Source: Theobroma cacao
Taxonomy: Eukaryota > Streptophyta > Magnoliopsida > Malvales > Malvaceae
NCBI RefSeq assembly: GCF_000208745.1
Contig: NC_030859.1
Coordinates: 8,074,446 to 8,138,445, forward strand
Reading direction: 5' to 3'
DNA: 64,000 bases
The translations under genes and the position numbers were made by a program. Under the pieces are notes generated by a model. It saw only the letters and a list, made by a program, of their open reading frames with translations. It was not told the DNA's origin and searched no databases. Each line of letters begins with the position of its first letter. Position 1 is the stretch's first letter. Positions 1,269-61,040 of the stretch are shown one piece after another.

Positions 1269-2376
1269 CTAATGGACTCGAATCTATTAGATCTAATCAT
1301 AGTCTGACAAGACTTATATATTCAACCCAAAAGAAGAATATGCATAAGACCCTTAAGGATCTCTCTTTACAACTAAGAGCCTAAGTCCCTGTCATCTCAT
1401 GACTCATATTTTACTTGAAATTTCATTTAATCTAATATTATCATTTAGTTTATTAAATTAATTAAGAAACCTTATTTGCCTAGTAATTGTAATAATGTCC
1501 ATCAACACATTATAACTTACCTCTACAAAAATAAAAATCTCAATGAAATCCCTTTCATTACAATCTTTACTAATGATCAATCCTCACCATACTATATTCC
1601 GAATGGGCTTTATGAATAAATAATTTCCACTGTCACATCCAACCCATTTAATACCAATTCATGATATTCATTCTTGTTGGACTATGAAAAATATTTTTCT
1701 TCAAAACACTAATATATAAACTTAATATAAATAATATAATTCACAAACATCTTTTAGAAAAAATACTGGCTAGATTTCTTGGGTCCAACAATCTTATGAA
1801 AATTGCTTGAATATCTTTCTTAATAGAGAATTATGAATTCTTTATTGAGCATCCAATATAATTTATTTAGCATGTACATAACCCAATGTACCAGGATATA
1901 ACTTTTAAATTCAACATCACCTATTAGTAACATCAAAGTCATATATATACTAAATAAATTATATTGACCTCTCAAGTCTAAGGACAATTAATAAATTGTA
2001 ATAGAACTCTTTTTAATTATTGACAATGACTGACTTATATGAAGCTCTTTAATTAAATCATGCTCAATGTATGTATCTCATACACTATACCCACTTGTTT
2101 ACTTTCAGGTCACTACCCCAATGCTAGAGTTAAAATATTCTATCTTTTTTATAAAGACATAACAAGTATAGGTTTTAAACAATTTGTCACGTTTAACCTA
2201 GAATACAAACAAAGAAATGAAAAACTACTAATTTTCGTTTAATAGTTCATCAACTATTAGCATAGTTTTTCTATAAATTACCAAACAATTATGATCATAT
2301 CATAAATGTCATAAATATATAAAATACACATTAAAATATAATATATATGAAATCAATAATTAATGTAACAATTTAA
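1269..2376. other. AT-rich intergenic DNA, nothing recognised
   Basis: Strongly AT-rich sequence with only short chance ORFs (one of 60 codons at 2060-2242 with no recognisable motif). No repeat, RNA gene or coding homology was recognised by eye. Confidence 0.6.
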
Positions 2377-3058
2377 GGTAAAATACTCTCATCATTTAAC
2401 TTTTAGTCGTAATTTCACGTGAGTCTGTTAGTTTTGAAATAAACAGTCTGTCCTAAAAGAATATCTTTCACTAAACATATAAGTCTAACCGTTAATATTT
2501 TCGTTAATGTGATGACATGGTAATATTGAAAAGATAATTTTACCCTTCATTAATTTTAAAAATTATCACTATATAAATTATAATTTTTTATTTTTAAATA
2601 TTTTTTCTCTCTTTTGAAAAAAAAAATTCTCTTCACCCACTTGTGACCAACAGCACGTAATGCTCCTGAGGGAAGGGAGCATTGATCTGGTGCTCATAAA
2701 GGAGCGAAACACTCAGTGCTACCTAGGGAGCATCTAGAAAAGATCACTAGATCGATGCTCCCAAGAGTGCTCCCCTCCCTTAGGGAGCACCAGATCAATG
2801 CTCCCCTCCCTTAGGACCACTATATTAGTGTTCCCCTCCCTTGTGGAGCACCTGCACTAAGGTGGTCAACTAGCGAATGGGAATGTCGTTAGTTAGTCAC
2901 ATTGTTTGAGAGAAAAAAAAAGAAAAAAAAAAGATATTTTAGTCCTTTCATATTTTTTGTTAACGATTATTGCACTTCTTGGTTTCATTGTAGATTTTAA
3001 AACCTAATGAATACATGTAAAATTATGATTAAAACTTAGGGGTGAGAGTATTTTATCC
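2377..3058. mobile_element. Non-autonomous TIR element (MITE-like), 682 bp
   Basis: Imperfect terminal inverted repeats of about 45 bp define the element. The left end begins GGTAAAATACTCTCATC and continues to 'cgtaatttcacgtg'; the right end, reversed, begins GGATAAAATACTCTCACC and continues to 'cataattttacatg'. The interior is AT-rich except for a GC-richer core (2640-2880) with a long inverted repeat. There is no ORF, so any movement would need a transposase from elsewhere. No clean target duplication was visible (acaatttaa on the left, aataattta on the right), so the superfamily is unassigned; Mutator-like is one option given the long TIRs. Confidence 0.7.
2675..2805. repeat. Perfect 21-bp inverted repeat in MITE core
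   Basis: Arms 2675-2695 (starting GGGAGCATTGATC) and 2785-2805 are exact reverse complements. Pairing extends outward to about 31 bp with two mismatches. The loop and right flank contain several further 'ctcccctccctt' and 'gggagcac' words, so several alternative stems are possible. This would form a strong hairpin in RNA or single-stranded DNA. Confidence 0.9.
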
Positions 3059-22668: not shown

Positions 22669-25600
22669 TTATTTGAAACGAACATAAGGTAAATTTATTT
22701 TATCTAATCTAAGAATGCCTTTGAGCTGACCTTCGGCTTGTGATACTACATGCAGGTTTTGGTGCGAATGCCCCTGATTGGAAAGATGATCTACAGCCTG
22801 GTTTCCTTCTCTATGAATGTGTGAAATCTGATAAGAAATAGCATTCAAACATTTGCGGATGGAGGCCAACAAGTATCTAGTTTGGGAGGAGCCTTCATGT
22901 CCCTCATGTATCATTTGTACCACTACTTTTGCATCCATTTCTATCCAAATTCTAGACACATTGTACTCAATACATAAAGTAAACCTCTATGTAATGCCAT
23001 TAACTCTGCTTGTAATGAATTATAAGGTCTAAAATTTTCAAAAAACTCAAAATTCATGGTATCTGTATGATCTCAAAGTAGTCCACCACCAGTAGCATTT
23101 TGACAATTATGTTTGGAACTACCATCAACGTTTAACTTGAACTCACCTGTTAATGGTTTGTGCCAAGAGAATTTTTTTGGTGGAGGTGGGGATGCTTGCT
23201 GAAACATTAGGCCCAACGCTTAAGCAATCTGTAAATCTCCCCTCCACTGCCATCTTTTAAACTGCCTTCCATGGAATAATTGGTTAATAAGTTTCAAAAC
23301 TCTCCACACCACTCTATTAGAATACATGCCTAGGTTCGTATGCTTCGTATCATTACATTTAACCGATAGAAACCGAAAAATGAATAAAGGCATTAATGTG
23401 CGGATGTGCCTTTTTTTCGTATAATCACCAAAGTGCAACCATGCCCATATAATCTGATAAACATTTCGAGGGTGAGTAATGTAGATTTGGAAAAATTTTG
23501 TAAAAAAATTCCAAACTTGTGTAGCTATAGGACATTCTCACATGACATGAAAAAGAGACTCCTCGGAGTTGCAATATTGACATTTGGAAGCGAGTTGGAA
23601 TCCTTTAATTTTCAACCTCAAATCAACTAGAATCCAATTCTATAATAATCTCCATAGGAAAAAAGAAATAGTGAGAGGAATGCTTTTATGCCAAATTAAG
23701 TTAAACACAGAGTTTACCGAATCTCTTTGCCTGATTATTTCCCATGCTGACTTAGTAGTGAAATCACCATCCGAAGTGGGGGCCCAATATGCCATATCTA
23801 TGCTAGATGTATTAAGTGGAATTTTTAGAATTTCAGCAACCATCTCTTCTAGGAGCACACTATTCAATTTATCCACATCCCATTCATCATTGTTAAAGAA
23901 ATAACAAACTTGTGTCATAGATGATGAAAATGCAAGGAAACGATTAATCAATGGTTCATCCCCCATCTAACAATCATGCCAAAAGAATAACTTACCTTTC
24001 CCAATCTTCCACCGCATATGTTGTTCCGTAACTAGACAGCAAGTTAGCATTTGTTTCCACGTCTGTGAATCATGGCGTTTCGGTTGAGTATACCTTGGTA
24101 TTTTACCACTACAGTATTTAGCCCTCATGAATTTTGACCAAATGCTATTACAAGTCTGGAATCTCCACCACAGTTTCATACTAAAGGCGTCAAAAACATC
24201 TCCCAAGCCTTGAATATCTAACCCACCTTCAGAGGATGGTAGAGTAATCTTATGCCAAGCTTCCTAGTGAATTTTCTTAGTGCTTGTCGAACCTCCACAT
24301 AAGAAATTATTAAATAATCTTTCAATTTTTTCAATAACACAAATAGGGGGCTTTAGGACCTGAAGCAAATAAATAGGTAGAGAAGATAATACACTTCTTA
24401 ACAAGAAAGCATTTTATTTTCCCACCCTACTATACGCTCCTGTATCTTTGTCACAAGATCATCACAAAGAATTACCTTTTTCGACCTTTTGTATAGAGGC
24501 ACCCCCAAATATGTAACCGAGAGATATTTGTGAGAGAATCCAGTAGTCTGAGCAATGATTTGTTTTTTGGAATTTGTCACAACCTTATACGTAATGTAGT
24601 AACTTTTTTGATGGTTTATTCGCTGTCCAGAAATCACCTCATATTCCTGTAAAAATGCTAAAATTCTCTGCAAGGTAGATTTCGCACCATTAGTAAATAT
24701 AATCACATCATCCGCAAATGCCAAAGGACTTGCATTGAACAACCCGAAAAATACTGAATGGAAGGATATTGGGCAAACAAGGCATTCAAGCCTCGAGATA
24801 AATATTTTGCTACCAAAATGAATAATAAATGAGAAATGGAATCCCCTTGCCTAAGCCTCATCTCGGATTTAAAATACCCCACTGTGCTGCCATTTATCAA
24901 TAAAGAAAACCAACAATTGGAGATGCATCGTTTAATCATATCAATCCACTAAGAGCTAAAACCAAATTGCTGTAGCATTTGATAGAGAAAATTCTAATCA
25001 AGCCGATCATAAGCCTTCATCATATCAAGTTTAAGAACCACATTACCTCCACGAGCCTTCTTGTCAATCTTCCCTATTAATTCTTGAGCCAATAATATAT
25101 TATCATTGATCAATCTACCCCCAACAAAACCACTCTGATTGTCTGAGATAATGGAAGGGAGTACTTTTGTGAGCCGAATAGCCAAAATCTTAGTAATAAT
25201 TTTGTTCAACATATTACAAAGACTTATTGGCCTATATTCACTCCATTCCGAGGCGTGATTATTCTTGGGCAAAAGGACAAGTGCCGTAGATGTGATTCCC
25301 TTTGGAAGGGCTGCAGCTGAAAAAAAATCCACTACCGCATCTAAAAGATCTTTTGCAACAATATCCAGCATTATTGGTAGAAATATGATGAAAAGCCATC
25401 AAGGCCAACCATACTGTCTTTGTCATATTAAAAACTGCTTCCTTCAGCTCAGTCATGGTAGGAACTGCACATAAATTAGCATTGTCAGATTCAGAAATGA
25501 TGGAAGGAATTAAGGAATCATTAAATTTGGCCATTTTATTCGGTTCACTCTTTATAAGGGAAGAAAAAATTCTACAGCAGAGGCCTTTACAAGATCCGGA

Positions 25601-26711
25601 TTGTCTGTCCAGCTCCCATCAGAATTTTGTATCTTGAATATGTGGCTTTTTATTCTCTTCTTTTTAACTCTCGTATGGAAGAATTTGGTGGTACTCTCCC
25701 CCTCCACCAGCCATTTAATTCTCGATTTTTGTTTCCATAATGACTCTTCTGCACTAAGATGAAGATTAAGTTGCGCATAAGCTTTGTTCATGGAAGCTCG
25801 GCTTTCCATTGTCTGCTCCTGTTGGAACCGCTTCAAATTGTGGAATATATCTCCAAAGACTACTTTATTCCACCATTTCAAATTCTTTTTTAAACGCAGT
25901 TGCTTACCCAGAAGGTCAGTATACCCGTACCATTGATTGGATGATTCCAGATCCTCTCCATAAAATTTTTAAAGCCATGATGAAGAACCCATGCATGCAA
26001 AAATCGAAAGGAAGAAGGCACTTTGGTTTGGGTCCTTAAGCACAATATTAACAGTGGACAATGATCCAAACCATCTCTATTTAAATGTTGAATTCTTGTT
26101 ATGCTGAAGAAGTTCGCCCATTGATGATTGTAAACCATTCTATCCAACCGTTGAAACATACGGTTATTTGTCCATGTGAACGGGTTACCTTGAAAGCCAC
26201 CATCTATCAAATCACAGTCCAATAGTGCTATTGCAAAGTCCTCCATTGCACCACCATGCGGTTCAACCCCAAATAACCTTTCATCTCTATTCAAAATAAC
26301 ATTAAAGTCACCACCCACAATCCAAGAAAGTTGGATACTCTTGGCCAAGCTTCTCAAGCAATCCCAAAGTAGAACACGTTCAGACCTGGTGCATTTTGCA
26401 TAGACAAAAGAAGCATAAAAAGGCAGGTCTAGCCACGGCATGGAGAGTTTTACATGTAAGCATTGCACATGATCTAACATAACTGCACAGTTCACATCAA
26501 AAGAGTGAAAGAACCAAATTTTATGGGAACAGGTTGTGAAAACTTTCTCAAACCCCAGTTTCCTTCTAAAATATTCAGCCTTTGTCACATTAACCATTGG
26601 CTCCAAAATAACGAGAATTTTAATTTTATGCATGAGTTGTAGTTTCTTGATTCTTCGTTGAATAGCATTACTTGAGATTCCTCTCACATTCCACACAAAT
26701 GCATTGATCAT
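22669..26711 (-). pseudogene. LINE ORF2: endonuclease, reverse transcriptase, RNase H
   Basis: From the N-terminus: an APE-type endonuclease (26711-25890; start INAFVWNVRG, motif GGDFNVI, GNPFTWTNNR, DHCPLL); a linker with WLVEGESTTKFFH (25881-25552); reverse transcriptase (25371-24398) with YRPISLCN, SGFVGGRLI and the catalytic FADDVIIF; a zinc-binding region (23966-23640); and RNase H (22959-22669) with HREGNQAVDHLS. The ATG at 26711 is preferred to the upstream GTG because the endonuclease motif follows it directly. Several stops and frameshifts (for example near 25890, 25540, 24990, 24740, 24390, 23640) inactivate the frame. When intact, such proteins nick the target and copy the RNA there. 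Confidence 0.88.
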
Positions 26712-26812
26712 GGATAAGGTCTGACAGGAAAGCACACTGAGATGGAGTCATTATTCGGATCAACATCTGTGTCCCCCATGCATACTGCATCCTCCGAGGC
26801 AGAGCTGATCGT

Positions 26813-28960
26813 TCACCCAAGGGAAACTGCACCTTTAGAATTTCTCCTGTGCCTTACCAGTGGGTGAACTTCCAGTTCACCATAGCACATTCCTTCATGT
26901 GAAGGAATATCACTCAATTCTTTATTAAACAGATACTTACCCATGCCCCGATCCGAGTTTGACCGATTTGCATATATTCCTTGCATGCTTTCACGTATGC
27001 ATGTGGTTGTTGAAGCAGCTAATATATTTCCACCTGAATGCTCAGTCTCCAACTTATCATCCTCCCCTTGTTTGCTGCCTTCATCACCGTGGATAGTACC
27101 GAGTGGGAGAAAGCCATAAGAACTCAGTGCCTTACTTCTTCCGAGTTGATTCATTTCCTCATCCACCAAAGGCATATTTTCCTCGCTTCCTTCCACTAAA
27201 TCATCACTCAGTGATGCATAAACCATCACCATACGTTGCCCGTCTGATCGATTAGGACCATCACCATTTATAGTCGATTCTAACGACCTCACCACTAGCT
27301 TCTTTTTTTTCTTCTATTTTCTATCCATAACATTCTGTGCATTCGCCACTCTTTCCACAGATTCACCCTCATTCCTCTTATTGTCACCAACTCTTACATG
27401 AAAAGTTTCTAGGCCAACAAGCTCAGAAAACACTGTCTCTTTCTCGCCTATGCCTTTTCTAGACAAACTCCATTCCCCATGCACGTTGACAGATTCCTGA
27501 AGCACCCCATCTGACCCAGTTGGCTTTGTGGTGAGTGTAGCCACTTTCTCGAGTGCAACCGGCTGCTCTTCATTATCATGTAGGATCTCATTGCCCATTC
27601 CCCTGCCATCTTCCTTCACATTGAACTCTACTTCCTCACCTTTTCACCCTGAATCTTCACCAAGTGGCTCACTCAAAAAATTTTTCTTTCCCTCAGAATC
27701 ACTGTTCACATACTCTGTTTGCCCCTGTTTTTCGAACTGATTTTGCATTCGATCTTCCTCCCCCGAGATCGTATGAAATTTGTTAAAAACTAGAACGTTT
27801 GCATCCTTAGGATCCTGATCTGATCCGATTTCCCTACCCTGCCGATCCTTAACACCACTTATACCTACTTTGCCCACTACCTACCATCGTGAGGTCTGTT
27901 TCGCTGGTTCTTCCCAGCACAGATTTTTTTCTTTTTCCCGAATTCTTCCATTACCTCCTTCAAACCTTGCGACCTTTTTCTCATCTTCAGTTCCTGTTGG
28001 CAGCGTAATAAAAGACTTTGTGTTGCCCTTAGGCTGCGACTTACCCTATCTAGATTGCCTTGGCTTATTCTCCAACACAATACAGTCTGTTTCTTTATGT
28101 CCCACATGACAGCAATGTAAACAGTAATCTGGCATTGTTGAAAACTCCACCCTTTGTGAATAGCTGCTAGTCACCATGCCTGTATCTCTATTCTGTATCA
28201 CGATCCAAACGTGATCCACAAGAGGCTTCTTACAATCATATTCGACACATACACGAGCCACATTCGGTCGAGACCCCTTTGCAATGGCCTTATTGACAAA
28301 TAATGGCTTCCCAACTGTCTTGGCAATCAAAAGCAGAGCCAATTTCTTGTACAAGTGTGCCTTCAGATTCGAAAACGAGATCCATACTGGTACCACCAAG
28401 GACTCCTTCTCCGCTTCAAACTCTGGATACCATTTGAATACCCACATTTTTTGGTTAGCAATGAACCAATGCTGTCTTGTCCAGATGCGGTTAAAATCTT
28501 ACTTATTTGACAAGTGAATAAAGACATGTTTATAGTCTAACCATTTGATCTCATAGGAGCTTGCAAGGTCGATCCCTTTGAACGCAGATCTGATATCCTT
28601 GAGTTTCGGCATGCGTGAAAACTTACCCACCAGGCAAAGATTGAACCGCTCTGCTAGAGTCCGAATTTCATCCTAAAAAAATGCAGCAGCAGGTCGATCC
28701 TTATACACCACGGGATCTTGGTTCAGGGGAATCATAGGGGGCTTTTCTCCTTTAGCGATAGAAAGAAAGGATTTCCTTTGAAACCTAAGAGAGGTTGGCG
28801 GCTGGTTCTGAAGGTCAAAAGCTTGTGAGCCATTATTGTTGACTAGTGACGCATGACTTTTGGCTTCAGCAGTGAGATGCATGGGTCTCGGTTGTAAAGA
28901 GGGGGAAGAACCAATCTGCAATGAGGAGATTAGGGGATTTGGTAGCCGACTAGTAGCCAT
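26813..28960 (-). pseudogene. LINE ORF1: RNA-binding protein with CCHC knuckle
   Basis: Starts at ATG 28960 (MATSRLPNPL). After a stop near 28673, the plant LINE ORF1 nucleic-acid-binding pattern appears: WFIANQKMWVFKWYPEF, VPVWISFSNLKAHLYKK, GKPLFVNKAIAKGSRPN. It is followed by the zinc knuckle CLHCCHVGHKETDC (28130-28080), then a long acidic, low-complexity tail to 26813. Five or so stops break it (28673, near 28500, 28046, 27877, 27644, 27314). Its expected role is to coat element RNA. Confidence 0.8.
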
Positions 28961-29162: not shown

Positions 29163-29513
29163 TGTAACACCCCTAATTTTTGGTATGAATTGTGTAATGT
29201 GAACCAAGACAATAGATGTGCTAAATTGAACCAAGACTATGAATATTGGTATAAAGGAGAGTTTTTAATGGAATTGTGTATATGTTTGGCACTTTGACAC
29301 CTAAATACGATATTAAGGCAAATCTCGATAAAAATGATGCTTTAATCCTATAACTTGAGGATTTGATTTAATTTGATATATTTTTGAGAATATATGTATG
29401 AGGATTTGAATTATATGAGTTATTTGAGGTATGAGATTAACATGGAATGGATTTGGGGTGTTAAGTTAAATTTTTGGAAGTTAGAAAAGACTAAAAACTA
29501 TCTATAGGGGAAA

Positions 29514-29775
29514 ATGTATTGATACATCACCTCATGTATCGATACATTCTTGGTGGGAAAAATAATATGAGGTGTTTTAGAGGATTTCTATCGATACATT
29601 TAAGAATGTATCGATAGATTTAGAAATTTGATGAACATGTATCGATACATTGTCCCAATGTATTAATACATTTGAAGGAGAGAGCATCCAAGACCATTTT
29701 ACCTGAAATGTATCGATACATTGCCTTAATGTATCAATGCATTCAATTGAAATATGAGAAAATGTATCGATACAT
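29514..29775 (+). promoter_or_regulatory. Nine ATGTATCGATACAT palindromes in pairs, C LTR
   Basis: 14-bp words at 29514, 29534, 29586, 29606, 29637, 29658, 29708, 29729 and 29762. Exact copies are at 29534, 29637, 29708 and 29762; the rest differ by one to three bases. Partners are 20, 20, 21 and 21 bp apart, and pairs start 51-72 bp apart. They lie in U3, just upstream of the likely promoter. The regular two-turn spacing suggests cooperative protein binding; that is inference. Confidence 0.9.
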
Positions 29776-30416
29776 CACTAAGGAATGGTAAAAATAAAAA
29801 GAGGTTTTGGGCATTCTGCCATTTTAAGAGAAAACCTAGTTTCTTTCTTTCTCTCTCTACCCTTTTCGAACCCTAAGCCTTCAAATGGCATTTGGAGCCT
29901 ATTTGAGTTAGATCCAAAGCTTGGAAAATTGATCTAGAGGTAAGATCATATGTTTTTACCGATTTATTTTTGATTTAATCGGTTAATAACCACGGATCTA
30001 GATATTTTCAAATTTGGTTAAACTCTTTCCCCTTGAGTTTATCGGTGATTTGAAGCCTAAATTTGGGTAACCGAACTTCTAAGATAAGGATTTAGCTCAT
30101 TTGTTGGAAGAATAAGCATGTATATTGAATTTGGGTATTTATGAAAAGTTGGGATATTTTTGAAAACTAGGAAATAAATATTTTTGGGATGCTTTGATGT
30201 TTCTACGAGAAAATTAAAGCCCCCTAATGTGTTGGTGAGCAATAAGACGACTGAAGGCCAAGGATTTGAGGTCAACTATAGGAGTGCTTCTGATTGTCAA
30301 GGTGAGTGAGATTTAATTAAATGCATGTGATGCATCTTGCATAATGTATGCGCTGCCATGGTACTTAAATGTTGTGTGTATGCTTAGATGAGAATGCCTA
30401 GGCTAGAGAATTGATA

Positions 30417-30420
<4 letters not shown>

Positions 30421-30453
<33 letters not shown>
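30421..30453. repeat. (TG)n microsatellite in the C LTR
   Basis: About sixteen TG units in the transcribed part of the LTR. Confidence 0.95.
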
Positions 30454-30455
<2 letters not shown>

Positions 30456-32314
30456 ACCTAGATGTATGTGGCTACGCTAGAGAACAAACATGACTGTGTG
30501 CCTAGATAAGGATGCCTAGGCTTATTAGTTATTTGAGATAGGAAATTGTGTTTGTGTGATTTGTGGTGAGCCACAAAATGGCATTGTGTTGGAACCTATG
30601 GCATGTAGGACCTAAAACAAGAGGCCTACACATGGTATGATATGAATTATGGATTAAAGACTATGTCGAATTATGATGAATAGGCTACGAAGTAGGTATA
30701 CGACTCAATATGTATTTGGGTTAATGGCATAGCGATTGAGTGATATTAAATATGTAAGGCCAAAGAGCCATGATTACTTATGGATGTAATCCATACATGA
30801 ATGCCCACGTACTTATGGTTGATTTGAGGATACGCATAAGGTTGTTAAGCCTTGATTAATAGGATTGAATATGATGAATACCCATGTGAGGTTAAGGGCA
30901 TGAGGACCTATAGATCGATTATGTTTTGTTTGATGATGCCTTAGAGTTTTGAAGGCACTTAGATTTATACTAAGCTTTAAGATGACTGAAGCTCGTTTAA
31001 TTTGAATATGATTTGATGTGGACATATGGAATGTCACAAGCACAATGGGTTGATTTGTGGATATATGTTCTGTCCAAAGGATGAATTCCGAACATTGATT
31101 TGACTTGAAGTTGAATGGAGTCCCACGCCATGTGATTATGTGTGCTTGTAGGGATGGTGGTAAGTAGGGACAGTGGCATTAATCCTGCCTGTGATTCCCA
31201 CCTGTAGTGCTGTGGTGCCATTTGTTGAGATTACTCCAAGTGATGTTGACCGTTGGGAGATTACTCCAGTCGATGATATGATTTTTAGCCAGTTGCTTTG
31301 GCATTGTGTGTGATTTGTTCTCTTCCTGTTGCTTCAGCATGGGCATGATTTGTTCTCTGCTAGTGGCTTTGCCATGAACATGATTTGGTTCTCTATCAGT
31401 TGGCCACCGAGAGTGATTTGACTACATCAAGGGTAGGACCACTCATTTGATTCATTTGACTATGATAACATGCATCGGGGATTGCATGATTTGATTTGAA
31501 ATATGAATATGTGGTGACCATTGTAAATGATATTTGATGAAATGCTTCAAATTAAACTATTATTTGTAAATGGGATTTGAGCTTCTGCTTGGCAACTAAG
31601 GTGTGCCTAGGAAGACCACTTTAATGATAGCGACTTTAAAGATAAGCCTTGAATTTATATGATTTGACGTGAGGACATAGAACTTGGGAATTATGGATAT
31701 GATATGCTGTTGAGATGTGATCAGGTAGGGCTTATATGATGAGTTGTGCATGTAGGATATTAGGATGATCCTTGCACCTTTGAATTGGAAATGTTTGATT
31801 ATGAAAGTTTTATGGTGAGATAGGCCTAAATATATTTTATATGTAAAATATTATGCTGTGATAGGGTCCCCTCACTTCATATTAGATGACTCACTCTTCT
31901 GTTATACCATATGCAGATAAATAGGCCATAGAGTTGTGTGGTAAAGGTCATCCAACAACAGACCATTTTTAGCATCTAGTAGGTTCCTGCCTGCTATGTC
32001 ACTCCGCTACATCAGTCACGAGCTTTTGCTCCACACTTAGTCTATTGTGTGTGTAAGCACAATGTGCCATATGAATTTATGTGTAAGGGTTGTTATGTAA
32101 AAACCCGCCTTGAACGACCAACGTATGGCCTTTTGAACATTTGTATGAATTATGTGCCAAGGATAATATATTATATTCGATTTTATTGTCAACATTTGAT
32201 TATGGAATCCCTTGGCTTTGCGTTATATGATTTTGAACTTTGAGCCTTGCTTGAGTCTAGTGAGCTTACTTGTTGGGCTCGATCACGGACCCTCGGGTTT
32301 GGGTTGTGACATAG

Positions 32315-32335
32315 TTAATATCAGAGCCCTAGGTT
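32315..32335 (+). other. Element C primer-binding site
   Basis: 'ttaatatcagagccctaggtt' three bases after the LTR end; initiator tRNA-Met type with the GG changed to AA. Confidence 0.8.
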
Positions 32336-47159: not shown

Positions 47160-47861
47160 AACTTGCTGCCATGCTTGCTACCTTGCTTGATTTTGACATA
47201 TTTTTCACCCATTTAACTTCATGGATTGATCATTGGTTTTTGTAACACTATGGGGTTATTAATCAAAGTTTGAAATGAGGGGTTTTTAGTAAGAAATTAA
47301 ATCAATTGCATTGTTTTTGAAACAAGTGCATCATGATTTCCAAATTCTTCCTATCGATTGCTTGTTCCCTTTTTATGTTCACTAACTGAGTTTTATACTC
47401 ACATTCTTAAACTTCATGTTTTTAGATTTGGAGGCAATTGGGACTTAGATTGAGTTGTCCATGTATGCTCACCTTCTTGGTAGGTACTATGGCATCTCAG
47501 TAGCTGTACCTTCACCCATGGTCACTCCGCTAACGGTCAAGTGTCTTATGCTTGTGAACATGTATAAGTAATAAAGACTACTAAGATTCATGTTAAAAAT
47601 CAAATATGTATATTTGATTATTGAAGCCACTATAAGGTGGGAAATGAGTGATACTATGTTAGCATAATACAATTGTGAGTATTGGGTTATTATAAAATGT
47701 TATTGAAATATTTTTAGCTGAGAATTACAATATGGGTTTGAGAAATTATGGTTTGGAATGATGATCGGGATTGCATAAATAAGCTTGCTTGGGCTTAGTG
47801 GGCTATGCCCATTGGGCCCATGCACCGGTCATAGCTTGGAATTTTGGGCTGTGACAATTGC

Positions 47862-48912
47862 CCATATTCATCATTCTCACTATTAGGAGTTCCAAAAAAT
47901 GCACTGATAGCCTGGCTGTGAAAAGGGACATGTTTACCACGCACAATAGCAACGCCATCAACATGCTCAAACGCATTTGTGTAAAACTCCCTAACCACTA
48001 GCATAACTGCAGCTTCAGGTTGGTCACTAAATAGTTGCCAACGTCGTTCTTGAATCATCTGATGAATCTCCTTATAATGGATGATGGGGATATTGAGCCC
48101 TTGTTCAGGAATGAGCACTTTGTTGATATACGTTGTATGATATCGTGTGGAGGCATCAGCAGAGACAAACTTTGATCTATCAAAAGCACCACTTGAGCTT
48201 GGTTTGGATAGCTTGGGTGCCATTCCTGCAAAAGAAATTCAAGCAATCAAAATCAATTCAAAACACCAATGTGCAATTCGTGTGACATGTAATCAGCCAT
48301 GAAAATATTAAAATTCCACATGCACTAATGTAATTAATTGGTTTCCAATTCAACAAACCCAACTCAACAATCCCATAGTAACATCTTAAAAAAATTAAGC
48401 AATCTCACACCATAATCTTGTAGAATTTTTATATTCCTTTATATAATCATACTTCATATCATCATCATAAATATCCCATACTCATCATTCCAAAAATAAA
48501 ATAAAATTCTATGAAATAGCACTTATCCAAAATTATCAATTATTACAATTGGCACCAAAATATCTAAACATAAGTCCACTTACTTAATCAAATATTCAAC
48601 AACATGGAAATACCCATCACCTATAAACCATTCACATGAACCAAGCATTTGACAAGTAAAGGTGCAGCAAATAGAATAAATAAAAAAATATAAGAACCTA
48701 CCCATTGGCAATAAAAATTTATCTCTAAATACTAAAATTTGTTGCACTTAAAACAAAATCAACGAGAAAAGTTTAAAACCCATTAACAGCTATGCACAAT
48801 GGAGTCACTTAATGTACAAAGATTATAAAATTTCATAATGGCATTGCTTTTCAACACAAAAATCATGCTCTCACTACACAAAAGTGGAAAATAAGGGAAA
48901 CTCAAATATGAT
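47862..48912 (-). mobile_element. Element B 5' interior and leader
   Basis: Contains the N-terminal ORF segment (to 48223) and about 690 bp of AT-rich leader with no further ORF. At 48912/48913 it joins directly to the middle of the 5' LTR, so the last ~480 bp of that LTR and the primer-binding site have been deleted. Confidence 0.7.
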
Positions 48913-56820: not shown

Positions 56821-56926
56821 CTGTTTTGATACATGTTCATGATATATCGATTCATGTTTATAATGTGTCAACAGAATTTTTCCAAAACTAAATACATCGA
56901 TACATGGCTTAAATGTATCGATACAT
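56821..56926 (+). promoter_or_regulatory. Palindrome cluster 1 in LTR E2
   Basis: Words like ATGTATCGATACAT start at 56821, 56842, 56863, 56892 and 56913 (exact at 56913), with partner spacing of 21 bp. The TATA box follows 55 bp downstream. Confidence 0.8.
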
Positions 56927-56980: not shown

Positions 56981-56990
56981 TATAAATACC
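56981..56990 (+). promoter_or_regulatory. TATA box of LTR E2
   Basis: 'tataaatacc' right after the palindrome cluster and before a CT-rich leader. It is the clearest LTR promoter in the window. Confidence 0.65.
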
Positions 56991-58565: not shown

Positions 58566-58710
58566 CATTATCGATACATGCAGAGAATGTATCAATACAT
58601 TTTCAACAGAATGTTACAACAAGTGTTCTGTGTGGAATGTATTGAGACACTCTCAAAGTATCGATAAATTCCTTGCATGTATCGATACATTTCAGAATGT
58701 ATTGATAGAA
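58566..58710 (+). promoter_or_regulatory. Palindrome cluster 2 in LTR E2
   Basis: Words start at 58566, 58587, 58637, 58656, 58677 (exact ATGTATCGATACAT) and 58697. Partner spacings are 19-21 bp. The cluster lies in the transcribed part of the LTR. Confidence 0.8.
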
Positions 58711-59552: not shown

Positions 59553-59573
59553 TTGGTATCAAAGCTCTAGGTT
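59553..59573 (+). other. Element E2 primer-binding site
   Basis: 'ttggtatcaaagctctaggtt', three bases after the LTR end; initiator tRNA-Met type with one change. Confidence 0.85.
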
Positions 59574-59625: not shown

Positions 59626-61040
59626 TGTGAGACCTTGTCAAGCTCGATTAAAAGACAGTATTGTACCGAGTGGTACAACTAAGTTAAATCGAGACTTGAA
59701 CTAGTTCAAATAGAACTTCTAAGAGGAAATTGAAAATTTTGAAACCTACAGAATGGCTTAGAATAGTGATTCAGAGTTCAAGGTCCAGTTTGGAGTCCAT
59801 CAGGAAAATTGACCGATTAGGGACAAAACGGTCATTTTACCATGTGATGATAAAATGGAGATTTCTAGCCAAGATTTGATCACATTTGACCAAGAATAAT
59901 TATATGAGATATAATTATGATTATTGGAGTATAAAATGATGTTTAGTAGTGAAAAATTATGATTCCCGATATTTTTGGAGCATAAGGGCAAAATAGTAAT
60001 TTTGCCACTAGAGGACTAAACGAGAATTTTTATAAAACAAATTTTGTCCCATTTGGTTAATATTGATCAATATTAGTGTTATTTGAGGTTGAAAAGTAGA
60101 AATAATGTGATTCTGGTACATTTCGGAGTATAGGGGTAAAATCGTAATTTTTTCATCTCAGGGGCAAATCGGTAAATTTTTCACCCCAGCACTTGTCAAG
60201 ACCAAGGGATTTTAATTGTGGTAGGATTGGATAAGTACCAGAATATTTGTGGTGGAAAATTAAGAAGAAAAAGTAAAAAATTAAAAAATTAGGCCAATAA
60301 GCATGTGACACGTGGCATGCTTGATTATTTTATTATTTTCTATAGAAATCAGCCCATTAAATCCCCAATTCTCTCACCATATTCTTCCTAGGCAACCAGC
60401 AACAAGAACAAAGGAAGAACAAAGGGAAAAACAAGAAAACCTAGGTGGAAATTCAAAGAAAAAGTGAAGAAATCNGGATAAGTACCAGAATATTTGTGGG
60501 GGAAAATTAAGAAGAAAAAGTAAAAAAATTAAAAAATTAGGCCAATAAGCATATGACACGTGACATGCTTGATTATTTTATTATTTTCTATAGAAATCAG
60601 CCCAGTAAATCCCCAATTCTCTCACCATATTCTTCCTAGGCAACCAGCAACAAGAACAAAGGAAGAACAAAGGAAAAACAAGAAAACCTAGGTGGAAAAT
60701 CAAAGAAAAAGTGAAGAAATCAAAGAAACAAGCTATGTAAGTTAGAATTTCTTTAGTTCTCCTTGATTCCTAGCTTACCCATGCTTTTGTCCTTGATTTC
60801 CATGGTTGAATATTGAGTCATCATGATGAATTCAATTCTGAAAATGGGTATGGAAGAGGATTGTTGTTGGAATAATTTGATTTAGACTATGTTAGTGTTT
60901 ATGGATAGTTAAGCATGGTTATGAACAAAAACCCAAAAGAAATATTCAATTTCTCTGGGGTTCCTTGTTGGCCGAACCATGAGGGCTGAATATCAATGGG
61001 GGATTGTGTTTATTTCAAGGAAAATGGCTTAGGGAGGATT
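59626..61040 (+). mobile_element. LTR H2, partial
   Basis: Begins TGTGAGACCTTGTC in the E2 leader and follows H1 (41990 onward) for about 1.2 kb: 'gaactagttcaaata', 'ttttgccacta', 'ggggtaaaatcgtaatttt' and 'aaatcagcccattaaa'. The second half of the LTR is absent; the sequence passes into gag at about 61040. An N and a 246-bp duplication lie inside it. Confidence 0.75.
60229..60721 (+). repeat. 246-bp duplication on both sides of an N
   Basis: 60229-60474 and 60476-60721 are near-identical (about eight differences, some G-to-A), with the single undetermined base at 60475 between them. Probably an assembly artefact of overlapping or haplotypic contig ends. Confidence 0.85.

Follow-up and report, generated by a model that had tools for sequence, protein, structure and literature searches.

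A 14-bp palindromic word, repeated nine times in the U3 region of a long terminal repeat of Theobroma cacao, lies for the most part on a ladder of whole helical turns of about 10.2 bp, and the same ladder recurs elsewhere in the genome in LTRs of both Ty1/copia and Ty3/gypsy type. The repeat studied, LTR C, lies in the window, by which we mean the whole 64,000-nucleotide stretch of DNA that was analysed. We consider it probable (at roughly 60%) that the array is a promoter-proximal, enhancer-like part of U3, on which a dimeric host protein would occupy each palindrome and bind cooperatively along one face of the helix; protein binding, cooperativity, the host origin of the factor and the activating effect are what we infer from sequence.

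Words within 2 mismatches of ATGTATCGATACAT begin at nine places: 29514, 29534, 29586, 29606, 29637, 29658, 29708, 29729 and 29762, with successive gaps of 20, 52, 20, 31, 21, 50, 21 and 33 bp across the array (29514-29775). They form four pairs with partner distances of 20, 20, 21 and 21 bp and pair starts 72, 51 and 71 bp apart, the ninth word standing single. The original prediction had named these nine words and four pairs, a recurrence of pairs every 51-72 bp and a position just before the likely promoter; the same words and distances were recovered, and the centre of the last word lies 21.5 bp from a TATA-like sequence. The core of the word is TATCGATA, and the exact palindrome has a central CpG. 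The features of the array and its relatives in the window are as follows, the palindrome words and the two further arrays having been located by word match.

29163..32311 (about), forward strand: LTR C, the 5' LTR of a Ty3/gypsy-type element, starting TGTAACACCCC and ending TGTGACA, with its ends read by eye.
29514..29527, no strand: palindrome word 1, ATGTATTGATACAT.
29534..29547, no strand: palindrome word 2, exact, 20 bp from word 1.
29586..29599, no strand: palindrome word 3, TTCTATCGATACAT.
29606..29619, no strand: palindrome word 4, ATGTATCGATAGAT, 20 bp from word 3.
29637..29650, no strand: palindrome word 5, exact.
29658..29671, no strand: palindrome word 6, ATGTATTAATACAT, 21 bp from word 5.
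29695..29701, reverse strand: TAAAATG, a one-mismatch form of the flanking motif YAGAATG, placed exactly 6 bp outside word 7; position read from the sequence, and the sole site of this type found in the LTR C array.
29708..29721, no strand: palindrome word 7, exact.
29729..29742, no strand: palindrome word 8, ATGTATCAATGCAT, 21 bp from word 7.
29762..29775, no strand: palindrome word 9, exact, single, 33 bp from word 8.
29790..29799, forward strand: TATA-like AAAAATAAAA from a motif scan, its start 21.5 bp from the centre of word 9.
29840..29858, forward strand: CT-rich tract 3' of the TATA-like box, present in several of eight aligned copies.
32316..32327, forward strand: primer-binding-site-like TAATATCAGAGC, with 2 mismatches to TGGTATCAGAGC; matches at 2 mismatches are not rarer than chance, and the call rests on its place at the LTR end.
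56821..56926, no strand: second array, four words with gaps of 21, 50 and 21 bp, in another LTR.
58566..58710, no strand: third array, six words with gaps of 21, 50, 19, 21 and 20 bp.

The words begin about 350 bp into LTR C, in U3. Across the whole window, matches with at most 3 mismatches number 27 against 4.09 expected, a total reached by none of 100 shuffles, which excludes chance as their origin. The second array is followed by a TATAAAT at 56981 that starts 61.5 bp from the centre of its last word; the third is found about 1.6 kb 3' of this box, with a primer-binding-site-like (PBS-like) site following 0.84 kb later, at 59554. Other features of the window include a reverse-strand LINE-like element (24398-28498) whose DUF4283, endonuclease and RVT_1 pieces lie in broken frames, a reverse-strand match to Transposase_32, a putative plant transposon protein, just under the Pfam cut-off (47795-48238), and a stretch of about 246 bp duplicated in direct tandem at 60229-60721, with 97% identity.

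We take the ends and PBS context of LTR C to be of gypsy type, and its element, of Ty3/gypsy type, may be a Tekay-like chromovirus. Positions 29344-29801 are 65.7% identical to a locus on contig C1 (L034) at which gypsy pol pieces stand immediately upstream of the array-bearing LTR: RVP_2, RT_RNaseH and SH3_Tf2-1 in order, then a stop and, about 65 bp on, the LTR with its array. Among the eight pieces at L034, gypsy-type order is seen for those three, with no match to RVT, rve or a chromodomain. By its LTR ends, its PBS context and the gypsy pol pieces of this relative, the carrier of the LTR C array is not a Sirevirus (Ty1/copia).

The genome searched comprises 324,851,811 bases in 431 contigs, and the exact 14-mer occurs in it 1,607 times, against 4 for the same letters reversed. 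From the window and 20 regions at the head of the genome match list, all on contig C1, we obtained 30 arrays with 245 words of at most 3 mismatches; arrays with fewer than 3 words, or without any word of at most 1 mismatch, were dropped, and the remainder were regrouped by hand under labels of the analysis (gypsy1, gypsy3, fam4, fam5, SIRE2 and "single"). Within the sampled regions, 117 of the 119 words with at most 1 mismatch fall inside arrays. Distances of up to 130 bp between words cluster at 20-21, 30-33, 40-42, 50-54, 60-62, 70-73 and 81-83 bp, and further at 91-93, 101-104, 111-114 and 121-124 bp, with troughs that are thinly populated, less so beyond 90 bp; the lattice is thus visible to 12 helical turns, a coherence over 120 bp. 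The original prediction read the 20- and 21-bp pairs as two distinct spacings, a distinction that we would withdraw: 20 and 21 are not two classes but the whole numbers on either side of 20.4 bp, which is two turns of the 10.2-bp lattice that also carries the distances of 31, 40, 50-52, 61 and 71-72 bp.

The best period in the 30 arrays is 10.20 bp, with a mean cosine of 0.676; random placement with the same word number and spans, each run taking its best period between 9 and 12, gave a mean of 0.033 and a maximum of 0.096 (300 runs). Bootstrap intervals are 10.17-10.24 over arrays and 10.13-10.235 over family groups, and leaving out group fam4 gives 10.21. Distance regressed on turn number has a slope of 10.179 and an intercept of 0.20, and 481 of 630 distances fall within 1.6 bp of the lattice, where 31% would be expected if they were uniform. 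A period of 10.5 scores 0.287 against 0.679 for 10.2. Restricting the set to words with at most 1 mismatch leaves 45 adjacent gaps between 25 and 80 bp long, whose best score falls at 9.8 (0.548); 10.2 scores 0.518 in this set, and random gaps reach at most 0.481. Exceptions occur: 29 of 212 adjacent gaps (15-80 bp) are off the lattice by more than 1.6 bp, chiefly the 33-bp gap (nine cases, in gypsy1 and fam5), which in LTR C departs by 2.4 bp while the other words of that array fit; among gaps of at least 25 bp, 70 of 94 are on the lattice. Periods of the separate groups range from 10.12 to 10.24 and five of the six groups exceed their own controls, the three-array "single" group failing to beat random placement (0.664 against a maximum of 0.664).

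Exact words in the whole genome tell the same way. A scan of the host genome for a 20-21 bp peak had been proposed with the original prediction, together with the caution that a flat distribution in other copies would speak against it; the distribution proved instead to be sharply peaked. Exact pairs number 595 at 14-44 bp, 438 at 20-21 bp, 10 at 22-28 bp and 606 at 45-75 bp, counted as left words with seemingly one partner reported per left word and range, and reversed controls gave 0 in every range. Among the 50 matches listed of the 14-44 bp pairs, 33 stand at 20 or 21 bp. Held-out pairs, lying beyond 19 Mb on C1 and on C2, with two earlier unsampled places set aside, return the same period: the 68 listed pairs outside the sampled regions have a best period of 10.20 (cosine 0.769), as do the 46 of at least 25 bp (cosine 0.681). 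The exact 20/21-bp pair is not a common sequence elsewhere, as far as viral contigs (no match) and prokaryote genome contigs (one match) show. Eight of the ten pairs at 22-28 bp sit at 22 bp, and in all eight the spacer is GTTCTTGA, GTTCTTGC or GTTCTTAC on one strand (at places on C2, C3, C5, C8 and C9); these may make up a single related subfamily to which the 20-21 bp rule does not apply.

Words are better kept than the sequence between and around them. In pairwise alignments, counting aligned columns only and dropping comparisons with flank identity below 0.60 or fewer than 150 aligned flank bases, identities of words, spacers and flanks are 86.2, 75.1 and 76.8% in gypsy1, 88.6, 77.9 and 79.3% in SIRE2, and 83.4, 72.1 and 76.5% in three of the nine gypsy3 arrays. 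Where copies differ in net length by at least 5 bases, the phase is kept in 65 of 130 cases within arrays and in 198 of 725 in flanks, a comparison in which alignments below 0.70 identity were dropped and in which copies within a family, and pairwise comparisons, overlap and are not independent. The most frequent departures from the word, in a profile biased by the 3-mismatch limit, include CA or TG at the central CpG of an otherwise intact TATNNATA core (79 of 245 words) and, at position 3, a G replaced by C, together with the mirror-image change (14 and 13% of words).

Comparing spacers between groups revealed a second motif, YAGAATG, placed exactly 6 bp outside a palindrome and pointing away from it. 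If one mismatch is allowed, the motif occupies offset 6 on 35 of the 140 sides that face gaps of at least 39 bp, and at 13 of 60 array ends, other offsets having 0-5 occurrences; beside gaps of 29-38 bp it is absent, with 1 of 48 sides in the sample and 1 of 30 among held-out strings. The form CAGAATG, again with one mismatch, occurs in 33 of 70 long spacers, drawn from all six groups, against 4.9 in shuffles (maximum 12). The held-out strings, all 37 taken together, carry YAGAATG at offset 6 on 15 of 42 sides, with 0-1 at other offsets. A 40-bp gap is made up as 6 + 14 + 6, with the middle 14 bases in the place of a missing word. The motif at 6 bp was found in carriers of both Ty1/copia and Ty3/gypsy type.

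The arrays also keep a set distance from the promoter. Scanning 160 bp from the centre of the last word to the start of a TATA box, with array direction assigned by us, places the TATA start at 91.5-92.5 bp in all six SIRE2 arrays, TATAAAT at 61.5 bp in three of nine gypsy3 arrays, and the TATA-like sequence of LTR C at 21.5 bp in six of eight gypsy1 arrays; the other seven arrays have no TATA at a common place within the 160 bp. The distances 21.5, 61.5 and 91.5-92.5 bp all fall near whole turns of 10.2 bp, being only three family values.

Two superfamilies carry these arrays. Group gypsy1 comprises eight, that of LTR C included. Group SIRE2 comprises six, with copia-type RVT_2, rve, SH3_retrovirus and gag pieces at four of the six loci (L016, L018, L029 and L030). 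At L018, integrase and reverse transcriptase run in the direction of the array, and after them come polypurine tracts and an LTR that begins with TGTTAG at 2731; at L030, AGGGGGAG-type tracts precede an LTR from 3527, the array and TATAAATA. Multiple polypurine tracts have been described for Sireviruses, and L018 and L030 fit that description as far as the available text of the source goes (PMC2829016). Carriers of the L018, L029 and L030 type agree with Sireviruses (Ty1/copia) as far as tested. Copia gag pieces at L033 and L035 follow a second, nested Sirevirus-type LTR; because nested insertions are frequent, neighbouring domains alone were not trusted for typing. Group gypsy3 comprises nine arrays, and several of its loci have two per LTR, one before TATAAAT and the other about 1.6 kb downstream; two arrays 1.6-1.7 kb apart also occur in L019, L024 and L025. 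We take gypsy3 and fam5 to be gypsy from the types of their LTR starts and PBS, with no pol domain among them. Group fam4 (L018:4840-5083 and L030:1070-1327, 81% alike) precedes the LTR by about 2.1-2.2 kb in both elements, and in L018 stands between pol and the LTR; by position only, it fits the linker copies before the envelope gene that the accessible part of Bousios 2010 describes for some Sireviruses (PMC2829016).

Some spacers are alike across the superfamilies. A near-identical 24-nt spacer is common to the arrays of L030 (SIRE2) and L025 (fam5), scoring 0.88 against at most 0.54 when shuffled, and SIRE2 and gypsy1 spacers reach 0.75 against 0.58; the shared 24-nt spacer makes an exchange of pieces between superfamilies possible beside convergence. 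Other palindromes are spaced in a similar manner. In L027 and L035, copies of TTAGTCGACTAA (at most 1 mismatch) stand 20 bp apart in four pairs; this word recurs at 53 bp three times, but also at 13 bp once and at 66 bp twice. TTAATCGATTAA yields two 20-bp pairs, in L019 and L029. The places concerned are L035 at about 1330-2441 (reverse strand), L027:1103-1249, L019:1607-1682, L029:2727-2758 and L033:7425-8567, those in L035 and L033 sitting inside nested Sirevirus-type LTRs. The 20-bp rule may hold for different words.

The reading that we favour, an enhancer-like array in U3, takes up the cooperative dimeric host factor suggested in the original prediction, which fits best, and would work as follows. 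Each 14-bp palindrome would be the site of a dimeric host DNA-binding protein, and sites at whole turns of 10.2 bp would place the bound dimers on one face of the helix, where neighbours two turns apart would touch and bind cooperatively; the pairs, together with the TATA box, would form part of a larger assembly, and YAGAATG may be where a partner protein docks, or else a further subunit of the palindrome-binding protein itself. Proteins on one face of double-stranded DNA are suggested because the one-turn period is kept over 12 turns with free spacer sequence, a dimer fits because the word is palindromic, and contact between neighbours fits because the pairs are tight at 20.4 bp. A host factor would be the simplest reader, because two superfamilies share the array; to our knowledge, Ty1/copia and Ty3/gypsy have no DNA-binding protein of their own in common. 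A role in transcription is favoured because of the upstream position and the fixed distance to the TATA box, though sequence cannot by itself separate activation from anti-silencing or insulation. Against an enhancer stand the second gypsy3-type arrays some 1.6 kb 3' of the TATA box, which are unlike a simple promoter element, and the further arrays of L018 and L030, which lie away from any promoter known to us.

The value of the period bears on the state of the DNA when it is read. DNA on histones has a helical repeat near 10.2 bp, 10.5 bp being the value for comparison, and the fit to 10.2 in place of 10.5 suggests that the DNA is wrapped or overwound. It is possible, if doubtful, that the words all face outward (or inward) on a positioned nucleosome and are there read by a pioneer-type factor: the period and its interval lie below 10.5, coherence spans 120 bp, and AA/TT/TA steps in long spacers show a weak phasing relative to the words (amplitude 0.033, against 0.009 in shuffles, with none of 1000 as high). 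A protein assembly could impose the same twist, however, and the dinucleotide signal is small and may stem from the second motif, YAGAATG. Less likely still is a role in anti-silencing or insulation, in which bound proteins would keep the LTR free of methylation or of spreading heterochromatin. DREF and BEAF-32, the fly proteins to be compared here, are BED-finger factors. In the accessible parts of two sources, VANC proteins bind clusters of short motifs in non-coding parts of VANDAL transposons (PMC5735166), and BEAF-32 and DREF bind TATCGATA/CGATA motifs in flies (PMC8759638). The CA/TG changes at the central CpG are as expected if methylated copies decay, and arrays also stand 3' of the TATA box and before the LTR. 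But VANC targets are tandem motifs in one orientation with an element-encoded reader, as far as that source goes (PMC5735166), whereas the word here is palindromic, is shared by two superfamilies and forms no longer tandem repeat that was found.

Explanations through RNA or through duplication fare worse. U3 is part of the 3' end of the element RNA. Palindromes of maize Sireviruses have reportedly been proposed as RNA folds or as sources of siRNA, and the original prediction offered a silencing target among its suggestions. RNA of the array (window 29500-29790) does fold better than its shuffles (z -7.71, equalled by none of 200) and could still be a source of small RNA, but any repeated palindrome gives such a fold, RNA pairing needs no 10.2-bp ladder, and lineages that keep the array have still multiplied, a poor fit that makes silencing quite improbable; RNA hairpins as the reason for the spacing were likewise rejected, the structure being present but asking for no such rule. 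A recombination target, also suggested originally, found no support in our analysis. That the array is a by-product of tandem duplication of a 20-21 bp or a 51-72 bp unit is largely refuted and now seems most improbable. One locus does have a 21-bp tandem with an identical spacer (C1:16042748 and 16042769), and some long spacers of different family groups are alike above shuffled controls. Yet the 110 pairs at 20/21 bp have 96 distinct spacers, so that the longer tandem repeat with conserved spacer named in the original prediction as its alternative did not appear; longer spacers have a median score of 0.314 within an array against 0.291 between family groups (90th percentiles 0.498 and 0.434); Tandem Repeats Finder calls no array overlapping 29514-29775; and one unit would not yield the 30, 40, 50, 60 and 70 bp classes together.

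A more specific form of the enhancer-like reading can be offered tentatively, at rather less than even odds: that the two-turn pair, the YAGAATG 6 bp outside it and the 10.2-bp lattice locked to the TATA box make up a composite cis-module, used by Ty1/copia and Ty3/gypsy alike and read by a multimeric host factor on DNA that is wrapped or otherwise has a 10.2-bp repeat. Such a module may have converged in the two superfamilies or been exchanged by recombination, exchange being allowed by the 24-nt spacer near-identical in one Sirevirus-type array and one array of fam5, a group with a gypsy-type LTR start.

The closest known system is the repeated motifs (RMs) of Sireviruses, which the available text of the 2010 description presents as palindromic, numbering at least 8 and up to 32 per element, each element having its own word, clustered a few hundred bp into the LTR and 5' of the TATA box, and called Sirevirus-specific since classic Ty1/copia elements were without the motif; their role was left to experiments (Bousios 2010, PMC2829016). 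The arrays here resemble RMs in being a palindromic word in many LTR copies and in clustering 5' of the TATA box (in the SIRE2, gypsy1 and gypsy3 proportions given above), and the tobacco Tnd-1 word, ACAATCGATTGT, also has the ATCGAT core (PMC2829016). They differ in having no CGG-CCG core signature, which Tnd-1 also lacks (PMC2829016), and in being common to Ty3/gypsy, set on a 10.2-bp lattice and accompanied by YAGAATG at 6 bp; no spacing rule for RMs was found in the accessible part of that paper (PMC2829016).

Other likenesses are partial. The available text on Drosophila DRE (DREF) and BEAF-32 sites likewise has the TATCGATA core near promoters, with overlapping copies in one promoter, but these are animal factors and a helical array is not described there (PMC8759638). 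The half-word ATGTATC matches AYGWAYC, from the EIN3/EIL (TEIL) site AYGWAYCT, at 7 of 7 positions, a lead only, since the eighth is G and not T (7 of 8) and a palindromic arrangement is not the site described in the part of the source available (PMC5220190). VANC targets share the dense short motifs in non-coding parts of elements and a sequence-specific protein as their reader, again as far as the source was available (PMC5735166). A search of the open-access literature, with most subscription papers outside it, found no report of the word or of helical phasing in LTRs; a match for TGTATCGATACA concerned a helminth protein, so far as that source was accessible. The original prediction called the paired palindromes no known element feature, and this stands in part: palindromic repeats 5' of the TATA box are already known in Sireviruses (PMC2829016), whereas the literature searches turned up neither the helical phasing, nor the flanking motif, nor the occurrence of the array in Ty3/gypsy as well, and all three are apparently new.

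That the lattice is kept while spacers diverge indicates a protein assembly that reads the words on double-stranded DNA, and not on RNA. The presence of the array in both superfamilies suggests that they exploit one and the same host factor. Such a factor would become findable, and the approximately 1,600 exact sites of this genome would form a natural set for the study of site spacing, central-CpG methylation and enhancer grammar.
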